Assembly (NCBI RefSeq): GCF_008000755.1
Contig: NZ_CP041690.1
Span: 1,178,001-1,242,000, forward strand
Direction: 5' to 3'
From: Youhaiella tibetensis
Lineage (GTDB): Bacteria > Pseudomonadota > Alphaproteobacteria > Rhizobiales > Devosiaceae
Length of the DNA: 64,000 nt
The notes below the pieces were generated by a model. The model had not been told where the DNA came from and made no database searches. It saw only the letters and a list, made by a program, of their open reading frames with translations. Below are positions 39,950 through 50,688 of the stretch, piece by piece. Positions within the stretch are counted from its first letter, which is position 1; every line of letters begins with the position of its first letter. The position numbers and the translations under genes are program-made.

Positions 39950-40120
39950 TCAGTGCTTGTCCCGGGATCGCCTCGTTTCGAGGTAGTGCAAGCCCCCGGC
40001 CGCCAAGGTTCCCGCCGCGATGCAGATCGCGACCCCGATTCCCGTGTTGCCGAACAGGGCTCCGAAGGCCGTGCCGATCACGACACCGAAGAGTATCCCC
40101 CACACGATCTTGATGGTCAT
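39950..40120 (-). CDS. Small two-helix membrane protein of 56 residues
   Basis: A short protein with hydrophobic segments WGILFGVVIGTAFGALFG and GIGVAICIAAGTLAAGG, with glycine-zipper spacing and a basic tail (LETRRSRDKH). An AGAGGAG site before the ATG at 40120 supports translation. It follows the DUF1028 gene in the same direction with a 37-nt gap. No family is recognised. Confidence 0.6.
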   Translation of the reverse strand: MTIKIVWGILFGVVIGTAFGALFGNTGIGVAICIAAGTLAAGGLHYLETRRSRDKH

Positions 40121-40157: not shown

Positions 40158-40805
40158 CTACCGCGCGCGCCGGGGCAGCGTGGCGAAGAACTCGGCATAG
40201 GAGCCGGCGGTTGCCCGGTGAAGCAGCGCTTCCAGCTCGGCAATCGGAGCCTCCGACCAGTCCACCCGAAGGTCGACCTCCGCATAGGCTTCGTCGCCCT
40301 GGACGCGCAGCGCCGCCGAGCCGACGCCCCGCTTATCCCCGCCCGCCGCCGCTCCCGCCTTGAGGGCATGCAGCAGGCACGAGGCGAAATCGGATTTGCC
40401 CCGGTGCGATCGATAAGCCGCCAGCATCTGGGCGAGGACCTCTTCGCCCACGAGCATGTTGCCGGCAACCGCCACGCCTTCCTCGGTCAGGTGTCCGGCA
40501 AAGGGCACGCAACTCGGGCCCGTCCACCCGGCCGTTCGCCCTGCGCGGTCGATGACGATGGCTTGCCTGAGCGCCGCCTCCTGGTCCCTCGATAGCGCTG
40601 CGGCCAATGCCCCGTGGGCATCGGTTCCATCGATCAGCGCCAGCGCGTCGATGGCCAGGTAGGGATTGGTCATCGCCTGCGTGGCGGCTGCGCCGAACCC
40701 GGCTCGCGTATGGGGCACCAATGCGCCGACCATGGGCCCGGCCGTCGCCGTTGCGACGCCGAACGCGCCGGTTTCCGGATCGCGGGCGACTATCGAAAAA
40801 GTCAT
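40158..40805 (-). CDS. DUF1028 family protein (Ntn-hydrolase-like)
   Basis: A 215-residue cytosolic protein with the DUF1028 signature start TFSIVARDPETGAFGVATATAGPMVG and GAAATQAMTNPYLAIDAL. The family has an Ntn-hydrolase-like fold and is often found beside peptide transporters and amidohydrolases, so cleavage of an amide in the imported substrate is possible. It is divergent from the peptide ABC operon and shares with it the inverted repeat at 40825-40869. The exact reaction is unknown. Confidence 0.87.
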   Translation of the reverse strand: MTFSIVARDPETGAFGVATATAGPMVGALVPHTRAGFGAAATQAMTNPYLAIDALALIDGTDAHGALAAALSRDQEAALRQAIVIDRAGRTAGWTGPSCVPFAGHLTEEGVAVAGNMLVGEEVLAQMLAAYRSHRGKSDFASCLLHALKAGAAAGGDKRGVGSAALRVQGDEAYAEVDLRVDWSEAPIAELEALLHRATAGSYAEFFATLPRRAR

Positions 40806-40824
40806 GCACAGTCCTTCCTTCGAT

Positions 40825-40869
40825 ATTTATCATCATAAATTGACAGGTGGCGAATTTATGATGATAAAT
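40825..40869. promoter_or_regulatory. Perfect 17-bp inverted repeat in the DUF1028/ABC divergent promoter
   Basis: ATTTATCATCATAAATT at 40825-40841 is the exact reverse complement of 40853-40869, with an 11-nt spacer. Each arm is itself nearly palindromic (ATTTAT-N4-ATAAAT), so there are probably two operator sites. The FadR-type regulator at the end of the ABC operon (46132-46944) is the natural candidate binder. Confidence 0.75.
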
Positions 40870-40937: not shown

Positions 40938-42506
40938 ATGATCCGCAAATGGAAAGGCATCGCGCCGCTGCTCTTGGCCGCAACTGCCCTGGCGCTGGTT
41001 TCGCCGGCCATGGCGCAGACGCCACCCAACATCCTGGTCATCGGCCAGATCGCCGAGCCGGCATCGCTCGATCCGCACGTTTCGACGGCGGCCAACGATT
41101 TCCGCATCGCCGTCAACCTCTATGACGGCCTGGTGCGCAACAAGCCCGGCACGCTCGAGATCGAGCCGGCCCTGGCCACCGACTGGACCATTTCCGAGGA
41201 CGGGCTGGAGTACACCTTCAATCTCCGCAAGGACGTCAAATTCCACGACGGCACGCCGTTCAATGCCGAGGCGGTCAAGTTCAATTTCGACCGGATGCTC
41301 AAGGAAGATAGCCCCTACGCCTCGACCGGACCTTTCCCGCTCGCCTTCTTCTTCTCCTCGGTGAAGGATGTCAGCGTCGTGGACGAACTGACGGTCAAGT
41401 TCACGCTCAACGAGCCTTTCGCGCCGTTCATGTCGAACCTGGCTTCGCCCACCGGCCTCATCGTTTCGCCGGCAGCGGTCGAAAAGTACGGCAAGGACTA
41501 TGGCCGCCATCCGGTAGGCACGGGGCCCTTCAAGTTCGAGGAATGGCAGTCCAACACCAGCGTCGTCGCCTCGCGCAATGATGCCTATTGGGATGGCGCT
41601 CCCGAGCTCGAGGCCGTGATCTTCCGCCCGATCACCGATGCCAACACCCGCGTCGCCGAAATGCTCTCGGGCGGCATCGACGTCCTGCTCGAAACGCCGC
41701 CGGACAACGTCGCCCAGTTCCGCAACGACGGCAATTATCACGTCGTCGAAGCCGTCGGCCCGCACGTCTGGTACGTCATGCTCAACGCCAAGAACGGCCC
41801 CTTCGCCGACAAGCGTGTCCGCCAGGCGGTCAACTACGCGGTCAACAAGGAAAGCCTCGTCAATGACGTGCTCCAGGGCACGGCCGACGTTTCCTCCGGT
41901 CCGATTCCGCCTGCCTTCAACTGGGCCTATAACCAGGATGTGGCGCCTTACCCCTATGATCCCGCCAAGGCCAAGGAGCTTCTCGCCGAAGCCGGGGCCG
42001 AGGGCGCCAAGCTCACCTTCCTCGTCACCGAGGGTGGTTCGGGCATGCTCGATCCGGTGCCGATGGGCACCGCCATCCAGGCTGATCTGGCCGCCGTCGG
42101 TCTTGATGTCGAGATCAAGACCTACGAGTGGAACACTTTCCTCTCCGAAGTGAACCCGGGCCTCGAGGGCAAGGGCGACATGGCCGAAATGGCCTGGATG
42201 ACCTCCGATCCGGACACTTTGCCCTTCCTCACCCTGCGCACGGCCGCCTGGCCCGCCGAGGGCGGTTTCAACTCGTCCTACTATTCCAACCCGGAAGTGG
42301 ACGACCTGCTGAACAAGGCCCGGCTCTCGACCGACCCGCAGGAGCGCGGCGCGCTCTACAAGCAGGTGCAGGCCATCACCCACGACGATGCCCCCTGGCT
42401 CTTCGTCGCCAACTGGAAGCAGAATGCGGTCGTTGCCAGCAGCGTCGGCAATTTCGAGCTCCAGCCGGACTTTTCGCTGGTCCTCCGGGACGTGACCAAG
42501 CAGTAA
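40938..42506 (+). CDS. Peptide/nickel-type ABC substrate-binding protein
   Basis: A 522-residue periplasmic receptor of SBP family 5. The signal peptide ends PAMA-QTPP. The mature chain has IAEPASLDPHVSTAAND, DWTISEDGLEYTFNLRKDVKFHDGTPFNAEAVKFNFDR (in parts) near residue 85, GRHPVGTGPFKFEEWQ near residue 190 and KRVRQAVNYAVNKESLV near 290. A strong AAGGAGAGG site precedes the ATG at 40938. It opens an operon encoding two permease genes, ATPases, a regulator and an M42 peptidase, pointing to import and hydrolysis of a small peptide or amino-acid conjugate. Confidence 0.93.
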   Translation: MIRKWKGIAPLLLAATALALVSPAMAQTPPNILVIGQIAEPASLDPHVSTAANDFRIAVNLYDGLVRNKPGTLEIEPALATDWTISEDGLEYTFNLRKDVKFHDGTPFNAEAVKFNFDRMLKEDSPYASTGPFPLAFFFSSVKDVSVVDELTVKFTLNEPFAPFMSNLASPTGLIVSPAAVEKYGKDYGRHPVGTGPFKFEEWQSNTSVVASRNDAYWDGAPELEAVIFRPITDANTRVAEMLSGGIDVLLETPPDNVAQFRNDGNYHVVEAVGPHVWYVMLNAKNGPFADKRVRQAVNYAVNKESLVNDVLQGTADVSSGPIPPAFNWAYNQDVAPYPYDPAKAKELLAEAGAEGAKLTFLVTEGGSGMLDPVPMGTAIQADLAAVGLDVEIKTYEWNTFLSEVNPGLEGKGDMAEMAWMTSDPDTLPFLTLRTAAWPAEGGFNSSYYSNPEVDDLLNKARLSTDPQERGALYKQVQAITHDDAPWLFVANWKQNAVVASSVGNFELQPDFSLVLRDVTKQ

Positions 42507-42600: not shown

Positions 42601-43548
42601 TTGACCGCCTATATCGGCAAGCGGCTGCTTGCCGCCATTCCCGTCATCCTCGGCCTTTCGATCATCGTCTTTCTGGTGATGAAGCTCATCCCGGGCGATC
42701 CGGCCCAGGCCCTGCTCGGCTCCTACGCCACTCCGGAAAACGTCGAGCGCATCAATCGTGCCCTCGGTCTCGACCGGTCCTGGCCCGAGCAATACGTTAT
42801 CTGGATCGGCAACCTGCTGCACGGCGACTTCGGCCGCTCCTACATCCTCAACCGCCCGGTGCTCGATGAAGTGCTCGAGCGGTTCGGCGCGACCCTGATC
42901 CTGGCGGGCGCCTCGCTCGTCCTGTGCTCGGTGCTCGGCATTCTCGCCGGTATCGCCTCGGCCGTCCGCCAGTTCGGCTGGACCGACCGCATCATCACCT
43001 TCTTCGTGCTCATCGGCATTTCCATGCCGGCCTTCTTTTTGGGGCTGGTGTTCATCCTGTTCTTTGCGGTGCAGTGGCGGCTGCTTCCGGCCTCGGGCAT
43101 GTATGCGGTCTATGGCGGGGGCGATCTGCTCGATCTGCTGCGCCATCTCATCCTGCCGGCAACCACCCTGGCCATCGTCGCCACCGGCGTCGTCGCCCGC
43201 CTGACCCGCGCCGCCATGCTCGAAGTCTTGCGGCAGGATTTCATCCGCACGGCCCGCGCCAAGGGGCTTACGGAGAACAAGGTCATCTACCGCCACGCCT
43301 TCCGCGCCGCCCTTGTCTCCATCATCCCCGTGCTGGGCATCCAGGCCGGCTTCGTGCTCGGCGGCGCCGTCTATATCGAAACAGTGTTCCAGTGGCCCGG
43401 CCTCGGGCAGATGCTGGTCAAGGCCGTCTCCACCCGCGACCTGTTGCTGGTGCAGGGCGGCGTGCTCGTGGCGGCAACTGTCTATGTGCTCGTCAACCTC
43501 CTGGCCGACGTCGCCCAGGCCATGCTCGATCCGAGGCTCAAGGCATGA
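42601..43548 (+). CDS. DppB-type ABC transporter permease
   Basis: A 315-residue inner-membrane permease with six hydrophobic segments. Characteristic parts are the N-terminus GKRLLAAIPVILGLSIIVFLVMKLIPGDPA, GLDRSWPEQYVIWIGNLLHGDFGRS near residue 55, and the EAA loop VLRQDFIRTARAKGLTENKVIYRHAFR near residue 210. The TTG start at 42601 follows AGGAGG at about 9 nt and gives the family N-terminus. The stop overlaps the next gene (ATGA). Confidence 0.92.
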   Translation: MTAYIGKRLLAAIPVILGLSIIVFLVMKLIPGDPAQALLGSYATPENVERINRALGLDRSWPEQYVIWIGNLLHGDFGRSYILNRPVLDEVLERFGATLILAGASLVLCSVLGILAGIASAVRQFGWTDRIITFFVLIGISMPAFFLGLVFILFFAVQWRLLPASGMYAVYGGGDLLDLLRHLILPATTLAIVATGVVARLTRAAMLEVLRQDFIRTARAKGLTENKVIYRHAFRAALVSIIPVLGIQAGFVLGGAVYIETVFQWPGLGQMLVKAVSTRDLLLVQGGVLVAATVYVLVNLLADVAQAMLDPRLKA

Positions 43549-45332
43549 CCGACCTCTCCGTCTCCGCTCCGCCCGTCTCCCGCAAGCGCCGCAGCGGCTG
43601 GGACCTGCTGATGGCCAATCGCCTCGCGGCGGCGGGGCTCTTCATCTTCGGCTTCATCGTCGTCGTGGCCCTGCTGGCCCCGTTCCTGCCGCTCGCCAAT
43701 CCGGACATAACCGACCAGCCCAACCGCCTGCTGCCGCCGTTCAGTGACGGGCACCTGCTGGGCACCGATCACCTCGGCCGCGATATCCTCTCGCGCCTCA
43801 TCTGGGGCACGCGGGTTTCGCTGCTCGTCGGCATCAGCGCCACCGCGATCGCGGCGCTTTTCGGCTCGCTCATCGGGCTCGTCGCCGGCTATGCCCGTGG
43901 CGCGACCGACAGCGTGCTCATGCGCTTCGTCGATATGCTGATGGCCTTCCCCTACATTCTTCTCGCCATCGCCATCGTGGCCGCGCTCGGGCCCGGGCTC
44001 CTCAACGCGCTCTACGCCATCGCGTTGGTCAACATCCCGTTCTTCGCCCGCAACATCCGCGGCGTCACCGTCTCGATCCGCAATCGCGAGTTCGTCGATG
44101 CCGCGCGCCTCTCCGGCAAGGGGCACGCCGCAATCCTCTTCACCGAGGTGTTGCCCAACGTCCTGCCGGTCATCGTCATCACCATGTCCACCACCGTGGG
44201 CTGGATGATCCTCGAGACGGCCGGCCTGTCCTTCCTCGGCCTCGGCGCGCAGCCGCCGACTTCCGACCTCGGCTCCATGCTCGGCCAGGCCCGCGCGCAG
44301 CTCTTTACCGCCCCGCATGCGTCGATCATTCCCGGCATCATGATCTTCGTGCTGGTCATGAGCATCAACCTCCTGGGCGATGGCATCCGTGACGTGCTCG
44401 ATCCGCGCCTGCGCTCGGGCGCGCTCGATCGGCCCATGCCGGTGACCAGGATCGACCGCAAGACCAGGCCGGCTCCGGTCCTTTCCGATGCCCCCGCTCT
44501 CGTGGTGGAGAACCTTTCGACCGGCTTCGATACCGGCAGGGCCGTCACGCCCGCCGTCCGCGACATCGGCTTCCGCCTGGCCAAGGGCGAGTGCCTGGGC
44601 CTCATCGGTGAAAGCGGCTCGGGCAAGTCGGTCACGGCCCTTTCCATCATGGGCCTGGTCGCTTCCCCGCCGGGTGTCATCACCTCCGGTGGCGTCTATG
44701 TCGATGGCCGGGACGTATTGTCGATGCGTGAACAGGAACTGATCGGCCTGCGCGGCGCCCGGGTCGCCTATGTGTTCCAGGACCCGCTGACCACGCTCCA
44801 TCCGTTGCTTCCGGTCGGCCGCCAGATCGCCGAAGCCATTCTCGCCCACGAGCCGGTAGGCAAGCACGCCGCCCATGCGCGTGCCGTCGAATTGATGGAA
44901 ACCGTCGGCATCCGCGATGCGGCTGTCCGCGCCGGCGCCTTTCCCCACGAACTCTCCGGTGGCCAGCGCCAGCGCATCGGCATCGCCATGGCGCTCGCCA
45001 ATGATCCGGACATCATCATCGCCGATGAACCCACCACGGCGCTCGACGTAACCGTCCAGGCGCGCATCCTCGAGCTGTTGCAGGACCTGCGGCGCGAGAG
45101 GGGCCTTGCCCTTCTCCTCGTCACCCACGATTTCGGCGTCGTGGCCGAGGTCTGCGACCGGGTCGCAGTGATGAAGAACGGCCAGATCGTCGAGCAGGGC
45201 GACACACGAGACGTCCTGCACGCGCCCCAGCACGACTACACCAAGCGCCTCATCGCCTGCGTCCCGGCGCTGGGCGAAGGCCATGGCTTCCTCGATCGCG
45301 TGCGACCGCTCTTTGAGGAGGCCCGGGCATGA
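43545..45332 (+). CDS. Fused DppC permease and DppD ATPase
   Basis: A 595-residue single polypeptide joining two ABC subunits that are usually separate. Residues 1-285 form a DppC permease (six hydrophobic segments, EAA loop EFVDAARLSGKGHAAILFTEVLPN near residue 185). Residues 310-595 form an ATPase with Walker A GESGSGKS (about 362), Q-loop FQDP, signature LSGGQRQRIGIAMALA (about 467), Walker B IIIADEP and the H-loop VTHD. A linker of about 25 residues joins them. No stop or frameshift is seen at the junction. Such permease/ATP-binding fusions occur in some alphaproteobacteria. It overlaps both neighbours by 4 nt. Confidence 0.92.
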   Translation: MTDLSVSAPPVSRKRRSGWDLLMANRLAAAGLFIFGFIVVVALLAPFLPLANPDITDQPNRLLPPFSDGHLLGTDHLGRDILSRLIWGTRVSLLVGISATAIAALFGSLIGLVAGYARGATDSVLMRFVDMLMAFPYILLAIAIVAALGPGLLNALYAIALVNIPFFARNIRGVTVSIRNREFVDAARLSGKGHAAILFTEVLPNVLPVIVITMSTTVGWMILETAGLSFLGLGAQPPTSDLGSMLGQARAQLFTAPHASIIPGIMIFVLVMSINLLGDGIRDVLDPRLRSGALDRPMPVTRIDRKTRPAPVLSDAPALVVENLSTGFDTGRAVTPAVRDIGFRLAKGECLGLIGESGSGKSVTALSIMGLVASPPGVITSGGVYVDGRDVLSMREQELIGLRGARVAYVFQDPLTTLHPLLPVGRQIAEAILAHEPVGKHAAHARAVELMETVGIRDAAVRAGAFPHELSGGQRQRIGIAMALANDPDIIIADEPTTALDVTVQARILELLQDLRRERGLALLLVTHDFGVVAEVCDRVAVMKNGQIVEQGDTRDVLHAPQHDYTKRLIACVPALGEGHGFLDRVRPLFEEARA

Positions 45333-46135
45333 CGAACGCCATCCAGATCCGCGATCTCGTCAAGACCTTCGGGGGCGGCCGGTCGCTCTTTGGCCGCGTG
45401 GGCGCAACGGTGCAGGCAGTAAAGGGGATCTCCCTCGACCTGGAGCGCGGCGAGACACTCGGCATCGTCGGCGAAAGCGGCTCGGGCAAGTCCACTCTCG
45501 CCCGCATGCTGGTGGGCCTGGAGCACCCCACCTCTGGCACCATGCTCATCGACAACAAGCCATGGGCCGAACTCGCCGCCGCCGGTACCCGCGCCTTCGG
45601 CCGCACCATTCAGTATGTCTTCCAGGACCCGGTCGCCTCGCTCAATCCGCGCAAGACCATCGGGGACATTCTCGATGTCCCGTTGCGCCTGCTGTGCGAC
45701 TACGACAGTGCCGCGCGGGCAAGGCGGAAGCGGGAACTGGTCGATGCCGTGCAGATGCCCGTCGATACGCTCGAGCGCTACCCGCATGAATTTTCCGGCG
45801 GCCAGGCGCAGCGCATCGCCATAGCCCGCGCCCTTGCAGCCGAAGCGAGCATCCTGGTGCTGGATGAACCCGTCAGCGCCCTCGATGTCTCGGTGCAGGC
45901 TCAGGTTCTCCTGCTGCTCCAGCAGCTTCGCGATGACCTGGGGCTTTCCTACCTCTTCATCAGCCACGACCTGGCGGTGGTCGAATCGATTTCCGATCGC
46001 GTCGCCGTCATGTATCTCGGTGAGGTGGTGGAGGTCGGCCCCGCGGCCCAGCTCTTCGCCAATCCGCAGCATGACTACACGCGGTCGCTCATCGCCAGCG
46101 CGCCGCGCCTTATCGCACCGGACAGCGCCGCATGA
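45329..46135 (+). CDS. DppF-type ABC transporter ATPase
   Basis: A 268-residue cytosolic ATPase pairing with the ATPase half of the preceding fusion. Walker A is GESGSGKST near residue 49, Q-loop VFQDPVASLNPRKT near 95, signature FSGGQAQRIAIARALA near 153, Walker B ILVLDEPVSALD and H-loop ISHDLAVVES. The C-terminus has the usual oligopeptide extension HDYTRSLIAS. It starts and ends with 4-nt overlaps in the operon. Confidence 0.92.
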   Translation: MTNAIQIRDLVKTFGGGRSLFGRVGATVQAVKGISLDLERGETLGIVGESGSGKSTLARMLVGLEHPTSGTMLIDNKPWAELAAAGTRAFGRTIQYVFQDPVASLNPRKTIGDILDVPLRLLCDYDSAARARRKRELVDAVQMPVDTLERYPHEFSGGQAQRIAIARALAAEASILVLDEPVSALDVSVQAQVLLLLQQLRDDLGLSYLFISHDLAVVESISDRVAVMYLGEVVEVGPAAQLFANPQHDYTRSLIASAPRLIAPDSAA

Positions 46136-46944
46136 GCGAGACCGACCCCATCGCCCCCTCCAGCCCTTCGGGCCAGCCGCGCCGCAAGCGCACCGACGAG
46201 ATCGTGGACGCCATCAAGCGCATGATCGTCGAGCACGGCTTGGGGCCCGGCGACCGCTTGCCCCAGGAGCGCGACCTGATCGTCCAGTTCTCCGCCAGCA
46301 AGGGTACGGTGCGCGAGGCGCTCAAGGCGCTCGAAGTTCAGGGTCTGATTTCGGTGCGGACCGGGCCGGGCGGCGGCGCATTCATCGAGCGCATGTCGGA
46401 GGGGCGGGCCATGAGCCTGCTCTCCAATTTCCTCTTCGCCAAGAATCTCTCCATCGCCAACATCTACGAGATGCGCAAGGTCCTCGAGCCGCAGCTCGCG
46501 GCCAGCGCCACGCCCCATATCGACGAGGCCGGCCTCCAGCGCCTCGAAGCCATCATCCGCATCTACGACCACGAACCGGTCGATGCCGCCGAGCGCTGGA
46601 ACCAGCGCATGGCCGAACTCGATTTCCATGGCGTGGTCGCCGAATATTCCGACAATCCCATCCTCGCCTTCACCTGCCGCTTCCTGCAGCGCCTGCTCAA
46701 GGACCTCACCATCGCGCAGGACATCTACGTCCAGCCGGAGCCGGTCTCCCGTCAAAGCGGCATCCAGCACCAGCGCGACCTCATCGCGGTCATGCGTCGG
46801 CGCGATCCGGCGGCCGCCGCCGCCATCCTTGCCCAGCACATGAGCGAGGCCGAGCAGCACATGCTCGGGCTCGAGGCCAGGCTCGAGGACCGCTTCCTCG
46901 AGGAAGTGTCCCCCACGCGAACCAGGAAGCGCCGTTCCGCATGA
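46132..46944 (+). CDS. FadR-subfamily GntR regulator of the peptide operon
   Basis: A 270-residue regulator. A winged helix (about residues 18-85) includes GDRLPQERDLIVQFSASKGTVREALKALEVQGLI. An FCD effector domain follows, with MRKVLEPQLAASATPHID, ELDFHGVVAEYSDNPIL and HQRDLIAVMRRRDPAAAAAILAQHM. It is embedded between the ATPase and peptidase genes with ATGA overlaps, so its level follows that of the transporter. The AT-rich double palindrome at 40825-40869 is its probable operator. Confidence 0.9.
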   Translation: MSETDPIAPSSPSGQPRRKRTDEIVDAIKRMIVEHGLGPGDRLPQERDLIVQFSASKGTVREALKALEVQGLISVRTGPGGGAFIERMSEGRAMSLLSNFLFAKNLSIANIYEMRKVLEPQLAASATPHIDEAGLQRLEAIIRIYDHEPVDAAERWNQRMAELDFHGVVAEYSDNPILAFTCRFLQRLLKDLTIAQDIYVQPEPVSRQSGIQHQRDLIAVMRRRDPAAAAAILAQHMSEAEQHMLGLEARLEDRFLEEVSPTRTRKRRSA

Positions 46945-47975
46945 TCGACCAGGACTACCTCCTCGACCGCCTGCTGAAGCTGGTGAACACGCCGAGCCCT
47001 GTCGGCATGACCGGGCGTGCCGTGGCGCTGGTCGATGGCTGGCTGCGGGAGCTGGGCTACGAGCCAAGGTACACCCGGCGCGGCGTGCTCTTTGTCGAGG
47101 TCGGGGAGGGGGCGCCCCGGCGCGCTCTCGCCGCTCATCTCGACACGCTCGGAGCCATGGTCACCGAGCTCAAGCCCAATGGCCGACTGGCGCTGCGGAA
47201 TACCGGCACCTGGGCTGCCCGCTTCGCCGAGGGCGCCCGCGTCACCGTCTTCTCCGACCAGCGCGAGCATCGTGGCACCATCCTGCCGCTAAAGGCCTCG
47301 GGGCACCGCTTCAACACCGAAGTCGATACGCAGGCCGCCGACTGGGACAACCTCGAAATCCGCGTCGACGCCATGCTGGCCGACCGCCCGGCTCTGGTGG
47401 CGGCCGGCTTCAATGTCGGGGACATGGTGGCCGTGGACGCCCAGCCCGAAGTGGTGGACGGCTTCATCGTCTCGCGGCACCTCGATGACAAGGCCGGCTG
47501 CGCCACGCTGCTCGCCGTTCTCAAGGCCGTAGCCGAGGGCGCCATCAAGGTCGCCGTGCCCTTCCAGGCCATGTTCACCATCGCCGAGGAGATCGGCATC
47601 GGCGGCACTCACGGTTTCGACCCGCAGGTCGAGGAACTGCTCGCCATCGATAATGCCGTGACGGCCCCCAACCAGGCCTCGCGCGACGATGCGGTGACCA
47701 TTGCCATGCGCGACCGCCAGGGGCCCTTCGATGCCCGCATGACGCGCCAGATGCTCGAAATCTGCGCGCGCAAGGGCATCACCCATGTCAGGGACACGTT
47801 CCGCCACTACCGCTCCGACAGCGCAGCCGCAGTCGAGGCGGGCTGGGACATAAGGGTTGGGCTCATCTGCTTTTCGCTCGATAGCTCCCACGGTTGGGAG
47901 CGCACCCACATGGCCTCGCTCACCGCGCTCGGGGAAACCCTGGCCGGATACCTCGAACTGCCCATGGCCGATTGA
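46941..47975 (+). CDS. M42-family metallopeptidase
   Basis: A 344-residue cytosolic aminopeptidase with two metal ions. Ligand motifs are AAHLDTLGAMV (about residue 63), SRHLDDKAGC (about 177), catalytic AEEIGIGGTHG (about 213), LLAIDNAV (about 235) and a final SSHGWERTH (about 316). It resembles M42 peptidases found with osmoprotectant dipeptide (NAGGN) systems, though those synthesis genes are absent here. Its place at the end of the peptide ABC operon suggests it hydrolyses the imported substrate. The ATG at 46941 overlaps the regulator stop. Confidence 0.9.
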   Translation: MIDQDYLLDRLLKLVNTPSPVGMTGRAVALVDGWLRELGYEPRYTRRGVLFVEVGEGAPRRALAAHLDTLGAMVTELKPNGRLALRNTGTWAARFAEGARVTVFSDQREHRGTILPLKASGHRFNTEVDTQAADWDNLEIRVDAMLADRPALVAAGFNVGDMVAVDAQPEVVDGFIVSRHLDDKAGCATLLAVLKAVAEGAIKVAVPFQAMFTIAEEIGIGGTHGFDPQVEELLAIDNAVTAPNQASRDDAVTIAMRDRQGPFDARMTRQMLEICARKGITHVRDTFRHYRSDSAAAVEAGWDIRVGLICFSLDSSHGWERTHMASLTALGETLAGYLELPMAD

Positions 47976-47992: not shown

Positions 47993-48520
47993 CTAGCTGG
48001 GCTCGTAGGGCGCATCTCCGGCCAGTTCGGCGACGTGGTCGATAACCGCCGCCGCGTCGAGTTCGGACATGTCGAGCATGTCCGCGACCCGCTCGAGCGC
48101 CGCCACCAGCATGATCTGCTCCCAGTCCTTGAGGCTGGAGAACTTCTCCTGAAACCGGGCGTGCACGCCGTCGGGGGCGATCGCCAGGGCCTTCTTCCCG
48201 CTCTCGGTCAGCGACAGGAAGACCTGACGCCGGTCTCTCTCACCGCGCCGGCGCTGGATCATGCCCGCCGATTCCAGCTTCTGCAGGAGTGCGGTTGTCG
48301 TTGCCTGGGTTATCCCCATGCGGCTGGCCACTTGCCCGGCCGTGACTTCCTGCCCGCCCTCGAGAATCTGCATGAAGATGAGCTGGGAGGGTGTCAGTCC
48401 CGTTTCGCGCATCAATTGCTTGGAGTTCGACTCGGTCGCGCGCAGAATCTTGCGCATCGCCGTCAACGCCAGTTTGGTCCGATCTTCCAATAGCGCACCC
48501 CAGAAATCTCTCGGCGGCAT
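47993..48520 (-). CDS. ectR: MarR-family regulator of the ectoine cluster (EctR-like)
   Basis: A MarR-type repressor of about 175 residues. The winged helix contains TPSQLIFMQILEGGQEVTAGQVASRMGITQATTTALLQKLESAG (in parts, about residues 45-90) and the wing RRGERDRRQVFLSLTESGKKAL. It is divergent from ectA, as ectR genes commonly are. Inverted repeats ATTTAG-N6-CTAAAT at 48573-48590 and a related one at 48741-48768 flank the promoters. The ATG at 48520 or an upstream GTG/ATG-like start at 48547 are both possible. The symbol is assigned from context and family. Confidence 0.82.
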   Translation of the reverse strand: MPPRDFWGALLEDRTKLALTAMRKILRATESNSKQLMRETGLTPSQLIFMQILEGGQEVTAGQVASRMGITQATTTALLQKLESAGMIQRRRGERDRRQVFLSLTESGKKALAIAPDGVHARFQEKFSSLKDWEQIMLVAALERVADMLDMSELDAAAVIDHVAELAGDAPYEPS

Positions 48521-48572
48521 ACTATCCGCAGTGCCCGGCGAACCCAAGCATTCTGCGCCAACTCACGAATGT

Positions 48573-48590: not shown

Positions 48591-48740
48591 GATAATGCAC
48601 GTCACGCGCCGTTCACAAGCGCGGTGGATAACTTTTGCCACTTCCGAGAGTCTGAGTAAGTATCTGATAAAGCGTGATTAATTCCGGATGTGTGTCGGGA
48701 ATGTGTCGCTCGCCAGCCATTTTCTGGCATCAAGCGGGTT

Positions 48741-48768
48741 GAAATTTAGTTTTAGCGAGCTAAATTTC
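48741..48768. promoter_or_regulatory. Candidate EctR site 2 upstream of ectA
   Basis: GAAATTTAG at 48741-48749 is the exact reverse complement of 48760-48768 with a 10-nt spacer, and it ends 6 nt before the ectA ATG. It uses the same ATTTAG/CTAAAT half-sites as the element at 48573-48590. It would block initiation or ribosome access when occupied or folded. Confidence 0.65.
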
Positions 48769-48774
48769 ATCCCC

Positions 48775-49350
48775 ATGATCTATGGCAATTCAGTGTTGTT
48801 CGACGCCTCTGCCCTTATGCGGCAGCCGGCAGCGAACCCGAGAACGACCATACGCAGGCCGACAAGTGCGGATGGCGAGAAGGTATGGTCGCTCGTCGGA
48901 GCGACCGGTTCGCTCGATGACAATTCGCTCTACTGCAACCTGCTGCAGGCCACCCACTTTGCCTCGACCTGCGCCATTGCGGAGCAGAACGGCCAGGTGG
49001 TTGGCTGGGTCTCGGGCTACATCCTGCCCGAGCAGCCCGACACCTACTTCGTCTGGCAGGTGTGCGTGGGCGAGGCGGCACGGGGCAGGGGCCTTGGTCG
49101 TCGCCTCATCGGCGACGTGCTGACCCGGCCCGAATGCCGCGCCGTCACCACGCTCCAGTGCACCATCACTCACGACAACGAGCCCAGCTGGGGCCTGTTC
49201 CGAGCCATCGCTGGCAAGCTCGACGCGCAGTTGCGCCAGCTCGAGCTGTTCGAAAAGGACACCCATTTCGGCGGCCGGCACGAAAGCGAATACGTCGTCA
49301 GCATCGGTCCCTTCAGCCCGGCGCAGGCGACGGCCCTTACGCGCGCCTGA
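48775..49350 (+). CDS. ectA: L-2,4-diaminobutyrate N-gamma-acetyltransferase
   Basis: A roughly 191-residue GNAT enzyme that acetylates diaminobutyrate, the second committed step of ectoine synthesis. The fold shows IRRPTSADGEKVWSLV, LDDNSLYCNLLQATHFASTC (substrate region), VCVGEAARGRGLGRRLI (acetyl-CoA loop, about residue 105) and THDNEPSWGLFRAIA. The ATG at 48775 places the start just after the operator-like repeat; an in-frame ATG at 48817 would give a shorter form. It starts the ectABCD-ask operon. Confidence 0.95.
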   Translation: MIYGNSVLFDASALMRQPAANPRTTIRRPTSADGEKVWSLVGATGSLDDNSLYCNLLQATHFASTCAIAEQNGQVVGWVSGYILPEQPDTYFVWQVCVGEAARGRGLGRRLIGDVLTRPECRAVTTLQCTITHDNEPSWGLFRAIAGKLDAQLRQLELFEKDTHFGGRHESEYVVSIGPFSPAQATALTRA

Positions 49351-49398
49351 TCGCGCGTCGACGACAAGCCCTTTCGACTACCCAGGAGGAATGCTCCC

Positions 49399-50688
49399 AT
49401 GGCCACCACGGCAACCATCACGCCCATCAACACCTTCGAGCGCGTCGAAAGCCGTGTGCGGTCCTATTCGCGCAGCTTTCCCAAAGTGTTCGACCGGGCG
49501 CTGGGCGCAACCATCTACGACACCAACGGGCGGGGCTTCATCGATTTCCTCTCCGGTTGCTCCTCGCTCAACTACGGCCACAACGATCCGGACCTCAAGT
49601 CGGCACTGATCGACTACATCGCCAATGACGGGATTGCCCACGGCCTCGACATGTTCACCGACGCCAAGGAGAATTTCCTGGCGACCTTCGAGCGGCTGAT
49701 CCTGCGCCCGCGCGGCATGTCCCATCAGCTCCAGTTCACCGGTCCCACCGGCGCCAACGCCGTGGAAGCGGCCATGAAGCTTGCCCGCAAGGTCACGGGG
49801 CGCACCAACGTCATCGCCTTCACCAATGGCTTTCATGGCGTGACCCTCGGCGCGCTCGCTGCGACCGGCAACGGCAAGCACCGCGGCGGCGCCGCGATGC
49901 CGCTTTCCGGGGTGACCCGCGCCGCCTATGACGGCTACCACGGCCCCGACATCAACACCGCCGGCCTGCTGGACCGCGAGCTCAGCGATCCCTCGAGCGG
50001 CATCGATGCGCCTGCCGCCATCATCGTGGAAACGGTGCAGGGCGAAGGCGGTCTCAATGCCGCCTCGCCCGAATGGCTGCGCCAGATCCAGGCCATCGCC
50101 GCCAAGCATGGCGCCCTCTTCATCATCGATGACATCCAGGCCGGGTGCGGCCGCACGGGCGGGTTCTTCTCGTTCGATGGCATGGGCCTTTCGCCCGACA
50201 TCGTCACCATGGCCAAGTCGCTCTCGGGCATGGGCCTGCCGCTCGCCATGACGCTGATCAAGCCCCAGTACGACATCTGGAAACCGGCCGAACACAACGG
50301 CACGTTCCGTGGCAACAACCACGCCTTCGTCACCGCCGCCGCCGCGCTTGAGAAGTTCTGGGACGATGATCGCTTCGCGTCCGAAGTGAACGAAAAGGCC
50401 CGCTATCTCGGGGATCGCCTCGGCGCCATTGCCGACCAGCACGGTCTTTCCGTCAAGGGGCGCGGCATGATGGTGGGCATCGATGCCGGCTCGGGCGAGA
50501 GCGCCGCCGCCATCTGCAAGGCCTGCTTCGCCAAGGGCCTGATCATCGAGACCTCGGGCAGCTTTGACGAAGTCGTCAAGGTGCTCTGCCCCCTCACCAT
50601 TTCCCTCGAACAGCTCACCGCCGGCATCGACATCATGGAAAGCGCCTTCGACGCTGTCCTGGGGTCCCGCCGCGCGGCTGCCGAATAA
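49399..50688 (+). CDS. ectB: Diaminobutyrate-2-oxoglutarate transaminase
   Basis: A 429-residue PLP class III aminotransferase that makes L-2,4-diaminobutyrate from aspartate semialdehyde. Motifs are [19 protein letters not shown] at the N-terminus, [21 protein letters not shown] near residue 115, [10 protein letters not shown] near 212, [13 protein letters not shown] near 240 and PLP-lysine in [15 protein letters not shown] near 270. An AGGAGG site precedes the ATG at 49399. It lies 48 nt after ectA. Confidence 0.97.

Follow-up and report, generated by a model that had tools for sequence, protein, structure and literature searches.

Regulators of the FadR subfamily, as set out in the survey by Suvorova et al. 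(2015, PMC4494728), recognize sites with TKGT/ACMA boxes, which in FadR are read by Arg45 and Arg35 (positions 38 and 28, respectively); BioR (TTATMKATAA) and NanR are given there as exceptions. The same source reads a near-constant distance between two sites, at varying intergenic length, as joint control of both operons. BioR has tandem sites and possibly regulates itself in Paracoccus, according to PMC4554459, and a MarR repressor controls the genes of the NAGGN osmolyte system in Pseudomonas aeruginosa, according to PMC8070244.

Here we analyze a 64,000-nt stretch of the Youhaiella tibetensis genome (the window) in which a FadR-type regulator is encoded with a peptide-type importer, opposite a gene for a DUF1028 protein. 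The literature searched, largely outside subscription journals, gave no paper on DUF1028 (COG3342) and nothing relevant to the operator motif described below or to the S. meliloti loci; the motif may be recorded in RegPrecise. A regulator, a likely DNA address and target genes are now proposed for an importer and a DUF1028 family.

Gene organization of the locus

The locus comprises one divergent gene and a plus-strand operon with the following order of genes.

40158 to 40805, minus strand: DUF1028 protein, divergent target (Pfam PF06267, 7.8e-64; PDB relative 2imh)
40938 to 42506, plus strand: ABC importer substrate-binding protein, SBP_bac_5, dipeptide/oligopeptide type (family search)
42601 to 43548, plus strand: ABC permease (family search)
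43545 to 45332, plus strand: fused ABC permease/ATP-binding protein (start set by the 4-nt overlap; halves searched separately)
45329 to 46135, plus strand: ABC ATP-binding protein (family search)
46132 to 46944, plus strand: FCD-domain GntR (FadR-subfamily) regulator, proposed binder (FCD PF07729, 3e-18; GntR PF00392, 1e-15)
46941 to 47975, plus strand: M42 peptidase, "osmoprotectant NAGGN system" type (TIGR03106, 433.8 bits, cut-off 397.75; searched as 46944 to 47975)

From the first permease onward, adjacent genes overlap by 4 nt (the starts of the fused gene and the M42 gene were placed by hand), and the regulator is therefore probably translationally coupled to the transporter. The fused permease/ATP-binding architecture is likewise annotated in relatives. 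The substrate-binding protein is similar to binding proteins for glutathione, dipeptides and nickel, and it scored above no NCBIfam cut-off.

The initial annotation had placed a FadR-type regulator within the controlled operon, and the protein encoded at 46132 to 46944 indeed combines an N-terminal GntR winged-helix domain (PF00392, 57.6 bits, cut-off 27) with a C-terminal FCD effector domain (PF07729, 66.9 bits, cut-off 24.3), the domain pair of the FadR subfamily. In an alignment, the FCD domain keeps two of the histidines usual at the metal site and apparently carries Glu and Gln where Asp and a third His are common, so that effector binding may differ.

Several neighboring genes deserve mention. 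A 56-aa membrane-protein-like open reading frame (39950 to 40120, minus strand) follows the DUF1028 gene on the same strand and may be cotranscribed with it. A gene for a MarR-type regulator (47993 to 48547) adjoins the M42 gene in convergent orientation, 17 bp past the operon end, and beyond it (48688 to 50688) lie genes for an acetyltransferase and an EctB-like aminotransferase, which by eye point to ectoine synthesis; among the other loci, just distant EctB matches (24 to 30%) were seen, in L024, L113 and L114.

Two palindromic sites in the divergent region

The 132 bp between the DUF1028 and substrate-binding-protein genes hold both predicted sites.

40825 to 40840, no strand assigned: predicted operator site 1, ATTTATCATCATAAAT, DUF1028 start codon 19 bp away
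40854 to 40869, no strand assigned: predicted operator site 2, ATTTATGATGATAAAT, substrate-binding-protein start codon 68 bp away

As the initial annotation had claimed, the region contains an exact 17-bp inverted repeat, with arms at 40825 to 40841 and 40853 to 40869 that are 100% complementary and separated by 11 nt, and each arm is nearly palindromic, enclosing a near-palindromic 16-mer. Its figures for the spacing had to be revised: the sites were put about 28 nt, or nearly three helical turns, apart, and they measure 29 bp start to start, or 2.8 turns, with 27 to 32 bp in relatives. Three-turn phasing was rejected on these values, and the 27- to 32-bp range also disfavors strict phasing.

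These two sites are the only ones in the window at up to three mismatches (shuffles held 0.04 on average, and none of 100 held two) and the only ones in the 4.43-Mb single-contig, Devosia-like genome at up to two. From the comparisons below, the best reading of the repeat is a palindromic operator, ATTTAT-N4-ATAAAT, present twice with a TTGACA box between the copies. That the arms mirror each other is then largely a by-product of two palindromic sites: the arms are fully complementary in just 11 of 39 locus pairs, and the outer ATTTAT/ATAAAT blocks are largely kept.

Conservation across relatives

One scan of named genomes identified 22 regulator relatives, from Devosia, Pelagibacterium and MAGs, and 19 orthologous loci could be compared, the contigs of L011, L019 and L021 ending short of the region. 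The initial annotation had proposed looking for the motif in genomes with the same cluster, and both sites are present in all 19 loci, with an unchanged gene order from DUF1028 to the regulator. Both sites match the pattern ATTTATNNNNATAAAT exactly in 17 of these loci, and site 1 has one mismatch in the other 2. The M42 gene follows the regulator in 12 of the 19 and is missing from 7. Across 29 family loci, the outer blocks hold 1.8 to 2.0 bits per column and the 4-nt core 0.7 to 1.1 bits in site 1 and 1.0 to 2.0 in site 2; the 18 columns ahead of site 1 hold 0.1 to 0.5 bits and those of the spacer no more than 1.3. Directly after site 2, one column holds 1.6 bits before values drop to 0.1 to 0.9.

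Of 46 transporter-bearing loci, 42 have the regulator. A site pair with at most two mismatches per site occurs in 39 of those 42 loci versus none of the 4 loci lacking the regulator, and its spacing is 30 bp in 20 pairs, 29 bp in 10, 31 bp in 4, 27 bp in 4 and 28 bp in 1. One of the 39 pairs is weak, with two mismatches in each site (L080), and L079, L110 and L117 hold a single acceptable site. In five distant loci (L108, L109, L110, L112 and L117), the divergent gene encodes an M20-type allantoate/N-carbamoyl-amino-acid hydrolase in place of DUF1028, and a gene of this type follows DUF1028 in L114 to L116 (L108, L110 and L115 were assigned by family search and the remaining loci by eye). The earlier description of the repeat as belonging to a divergent transporter/DUF1028 pair therefore fits the window but is too narrow for its relatives, where the sites track the regulator and DUF1028 can be replaced.

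The sites follow the regulator gene

Among 136 family genomes searched, in which the regulator was counted at E ≤ 1e-40, the exact pair was present in 42 and the regulator in 52. All 42 genomes with the exact pair encode the regulator, and none of the 84 genomes without the regulator has the pair (Fisher p = 7e-26, a nominal value as the genomes are related); a reversed control pattern gave no match in any of the 136. The exact pair is absent from 10 of the 52 regulator-positive genomes, of which eight were inspected (all but G103 and G136). Five of these (G073, G093, G145, G023 and G137) have near-exact pairs with one or two mismatches, at 27-bp spacing in G023 and G137, G003 has weak sites only, and in G079 and G118 the regulator relative lies away from the transporter.

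The association extends to more distant relatives. A search for transporter relatives in 385 genomes across the class gave 14 matches, 13 of them beyond the window, and these 13 loci, together with L079 to L081 and L087 (one at order level, three distant ones of the family), formed a held-out set of 17. A matrix trained on the 29 family loci found a site in all 13 regulator-bearing loci of this set, each beating at least 991 of 1,000 Markov shuffles, and in none of the 4 loci without the regulator (L114 and L118 to L120), for which 424, 728, 853 and 645 of 1,000 shuffles were as good; the test was held out but not blind, as the stretches had been inspected by eye beforehand. No regulator relative was found genome-wide at E ≤ 1e-25 in the genomes of these four loci, and the other nine class-level genomes have one. 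Since L114 retains both the transporter and DUF1028, it is the regulator that the site follows. We consider it very likely, on this comparative evidence, that the sites are docking sites of the operon-encoded FCD-GntR regulator.

A probably dedicated, self-regulating and mobile module

Exact sites were counted in 16 whole genomes. Each of the 11 regulator-positive genomes has exactly two, adjacent to each other and 5 to 6 kb from the regulator gene, and the five regulator-negative genomes have none. The regulator thus looks dedicated to one locus, and a wider regulon was rejected since no extra exact sites occurred in the 16 genomes. One-mismatch extras numbered 11 in total (0 to 2 per genome), compared with 18 (0 to 6 per genome) for reversed-pattern controls.

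An informative rearrangement occurs on the Salipiger plasmid unnamed3, where the regulator gene forms a separate unit convergent with DUF1028. A one-mismatch site, ATTTCTCATGATAAAT, lies 66 bp upstream of the regulator gene there (none of 5,000 shuffles of the 200-bp stretch equaled it), and a site pair also precedes the transporter, with two mismatches and none. This arrangement makes direct autoregulation by the FCD-GntR protein very likely.

The transporter was found in 86 plasmid records, and the pair occurs at up to two mismatches per site in 8 of the 10 plasmid loci that were read; of these eight, the Peteryoungia locus (L158) has a weak pair, and the two S. meliloti loci each combine one exact site with one three-mismatch site. 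Klebsiella, Enterobacter and Rahnella plasmids carry pairs spaced by 32 bp, which indicates that the module extends beyond Alphaproteobacteria. IS26 copies flank the DUF1028-importer-regulator-M42 block at both ends on the Klebsiella plasmid and at its DUF1028 end on the Enterobacter plasmid (loci L156 and L160), where DUF1028 appears shortened in the latter. These IS26 copies are a sign of recent mobility.

Divergent promoter region and proposed mechanism

A candidate promoter for the transporter operon, identified by eye, lies among the sites.

40840 to 40845, plus strand: candidate -35 box TTGACA, beginning at the last base of site 1
40863 to 40868, plus strand: candidate -10 box GATAAA, inside site 2 (17-nt spacer, 4/6 match)

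TTGAC occupies the candidate -35 position in 21 of the 39 locus pairs. A sigma-70 scan did not report the candidate TTGACA promoter, its sole listing being another, weak match at 40805 to 40833. The site spacing is near constant (27 to 31 bp in 39 pairs) versus intergenic lengths of about 100 to 159 bp, for which some start codons were estimated from BLAST, a pattern expected of a divergon under joint control.

Taken together, these features make it probable that the repeat is a double operator through which the FCD-type GntR regulator represses both divergent units until a ligand releases it. One dimer of the regulator would occupy each 16-bp palindrome (consensus ATTTAT-N4-ATAAAT), and with both in place the likely promoter that serves the importer and regulator genes would be covered. 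Because the sites overlap this promoter and site 1 lies 19 bp from the DUF1028 start codon, binding would shut off transcription on both sides, and the regulator would thereby repress its own operon (negative autoregulation). An imported or metabolized ligand held by the FCD domain would then release the regulator from DNA. Sequence comparison establishes the sites, their conservation, their link with the regulator gene and their confinement to this locus; that the regulator binds them directly, that it represses, and which ligand it senses are inferred. The original idea of two dimer sites in the transporter/DUF1028 divergent region, serving the operon-encoded FadR-type regulator, thus receives support from comparative genomics.

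Several other explanations have to be weighed against this double operator. Were the repeat an RNA hairpin (a terminator, attenuator or transcript stabilizer) rather than protein-binding DNA, strong folding would be expected, and the repeat of the window does fold as RNA at -23.1 kcal/mol (z = -5.0; z = -5.7 for the other strand). Core complementarity between the arms also averages 2.31 of 4, versus 1.83 with shuffled partners, a level reached by a fraction of 0.0012 of shuffles, but the relatedness of the sequences and their shared palindromy can yield such an excess. The folding is not general, being reduced in L008 (z = -2.4) and no better than in shuffles in L022 (z = -0.75); one-sided core changes are seen, for example in L008 and L015, and full complementarity is limited to the minority of pairs given above. 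Further, transcripts from the likely promoter would begin downstream of both arms, and presence of the repeat tracks the regulator gene, not the transporter. A hairpin is thus highly improbable, and it was rejected as the main function because the arms diverge independently. Recognition by another regulator is also very unlikely, although the genome offers candidates, with 31 GntR-domain matches and the convergent MarR gene 17 bp past the operon, for which the MarR repressor of NAGGN genes in P. aeruginosa (PMC8070244) sets a precedent. However, the sites accompany the FCD regulator and are absent in the four genomes without it, and the MarR protein was rejected as the binder because a relative was found beside the operon in one other genome alone (G010; L030 and L077).

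The data bear less directly on the sign and reach of control. The FCD regulator could bind but activate the operon, or each site could control its own side only, and the association data are blind to sign; DUF1028 is closer to site 1, the transporter to site 2. On the other hand, the sites share sequence with the likely core promoter, and the spacing is near constant despite varying intergenic length, which PMC4494728 takes as joint control. We therefore regard activation or one-sided control as unlikely, and repression of both units from a double operator as the preferred reading.

The recognition helix

At position 38, where Arg is typical of the subfamily but not strictly defining, Lys occurs in 45 of 47 aligned regulator relatives and Arg in 2 (the 47 include L085 and L086, encoded away from the transporter), and just 28 of the 47 have Arg at position 28. 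Arg occupies position 38 in 19 of the 26 further GntR proteins aligned from this genome, none of which has Lys there (30 loci were examined and 27 aligned, the window's own regulator among them), and four PDB relatives, including NanR and PdhR, have Arg. The half-sites ATTTAT/ATAAAT lie around 4 nt and contain no GT/AC, in place of the common but not universal TKGT/ACMA boxes 2 to 3 nt apart. A helix with Lys for Arg fits a changed specificity, as judged from these alignments, and could also reflect shared ancestry. As an example of altered GntR recognition, with Lys for Arg and A/T for G/C, the locus is a clean one. The distant regulators of L110 and L117 have Trp at position 28, and their drifted sites contain a ATTGATCAT half, possibly a case in which regulator and site changed together.

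The transported substrate

An NAGGN-type M42 peptidase (TIGR03106) scored above the cut-off in six of eight genomes, including that of the window. The asnO-type NAGGN amidotransferase (TIGR03104) was positive in one of the eight, with none above the cut-off in the window's genome, so scavenging of NAGGN is possible. In Sinorhizobium, genes for N-acetylglutaminylglutamine amidotransferase and synthetase come next after the importer-regulator operon, in the same orientation, and the NAGGN-type M42 gene lies on the opposite side of the operon; no operator-like site was found upstream of the amidotransferase gene. DUF1028, importer, regulator and NAGGN-type M42 genes occur together in Agrobacterium, Devosia neptuniae and the Klebsiella and Enterobacter plasmids. 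Among the 13 class-level genomes, five have the NAGGN amidotransferase, each time away from the transporter.

Less firmly than the regulator assignment, this gene context suggests that the importer handles NAGGN or a similar blocked dipeptide. A blocked dipeptide is the likeliest substrate class and NAGGN the best named candidate, although that NAGGN itself is the substrate seems rather doubtful. NAGGN was rejected as a firm label in view of the close loci without the M42 gene, the amidotransferase genes located elsewhere and the distant loci with an M20-type hydrolase. More speculatively, this may be a single-locus module that occurs in Alphaproteobacteria and on some plasmids of Enterobacterales and whose FadR-subfamily regulator, its recognition helix changed by Lys for Arg, would act at a GT-less ATTTAT-N4-ATAAAT double operator to control NAGGN uptake and breakdown; nonproducers such as Devosia would scavenge the osmolyte of their neighbors, and DUF1028 would be one of the enzymes. 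Both the cargo of the importer (NAGGN or another blocked dipeptide) and the role of DUF1028 proteins become directly testable.

Comparison with known systems

The locus shares with the NAGGN osmolyte system (asnO-ngg-M42) the NAGGN-type M42 peptidase in the window operon and, in Sinorhizobium, a position adjoining the synthesis genes. It differs in that the window's genome lacks an amidotransferase above the cut-off, and the link to uptake is one that we propose from gene context. Its architecture is close to that of the FadR-subfamily double-site divergons of Suvorova et al. (2015, PMC4494728): the regulator combines a GntR winged helix with an FCD domain, the palindrome is A/T rich, and two sites at a near-constant distance lie between divergent units, one of which is the operon of the regulator gene. 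Unlike the subfamily as characterized there, the window sites have a 4-nt center and no TKGT/ACMA boxes, and the regulator has Lys for Arg at the main G-contact position. A parallel for such a site is BioR of Alphaproteobacteria, which also belongs to the FadR subfamily and has a TTAT/ATAA palindrome in place of GT/AC (site quoted in PMC4494728) and, in Paracoccus, tandem sites and possible self-regulation (PMC4554459). As described in these sources, BioR sites have a center of 2 nt, compared with 4 nt here, and the targets of BioR are biotin genes, whereas the proposed targets here are an importer operon and DUF1028.
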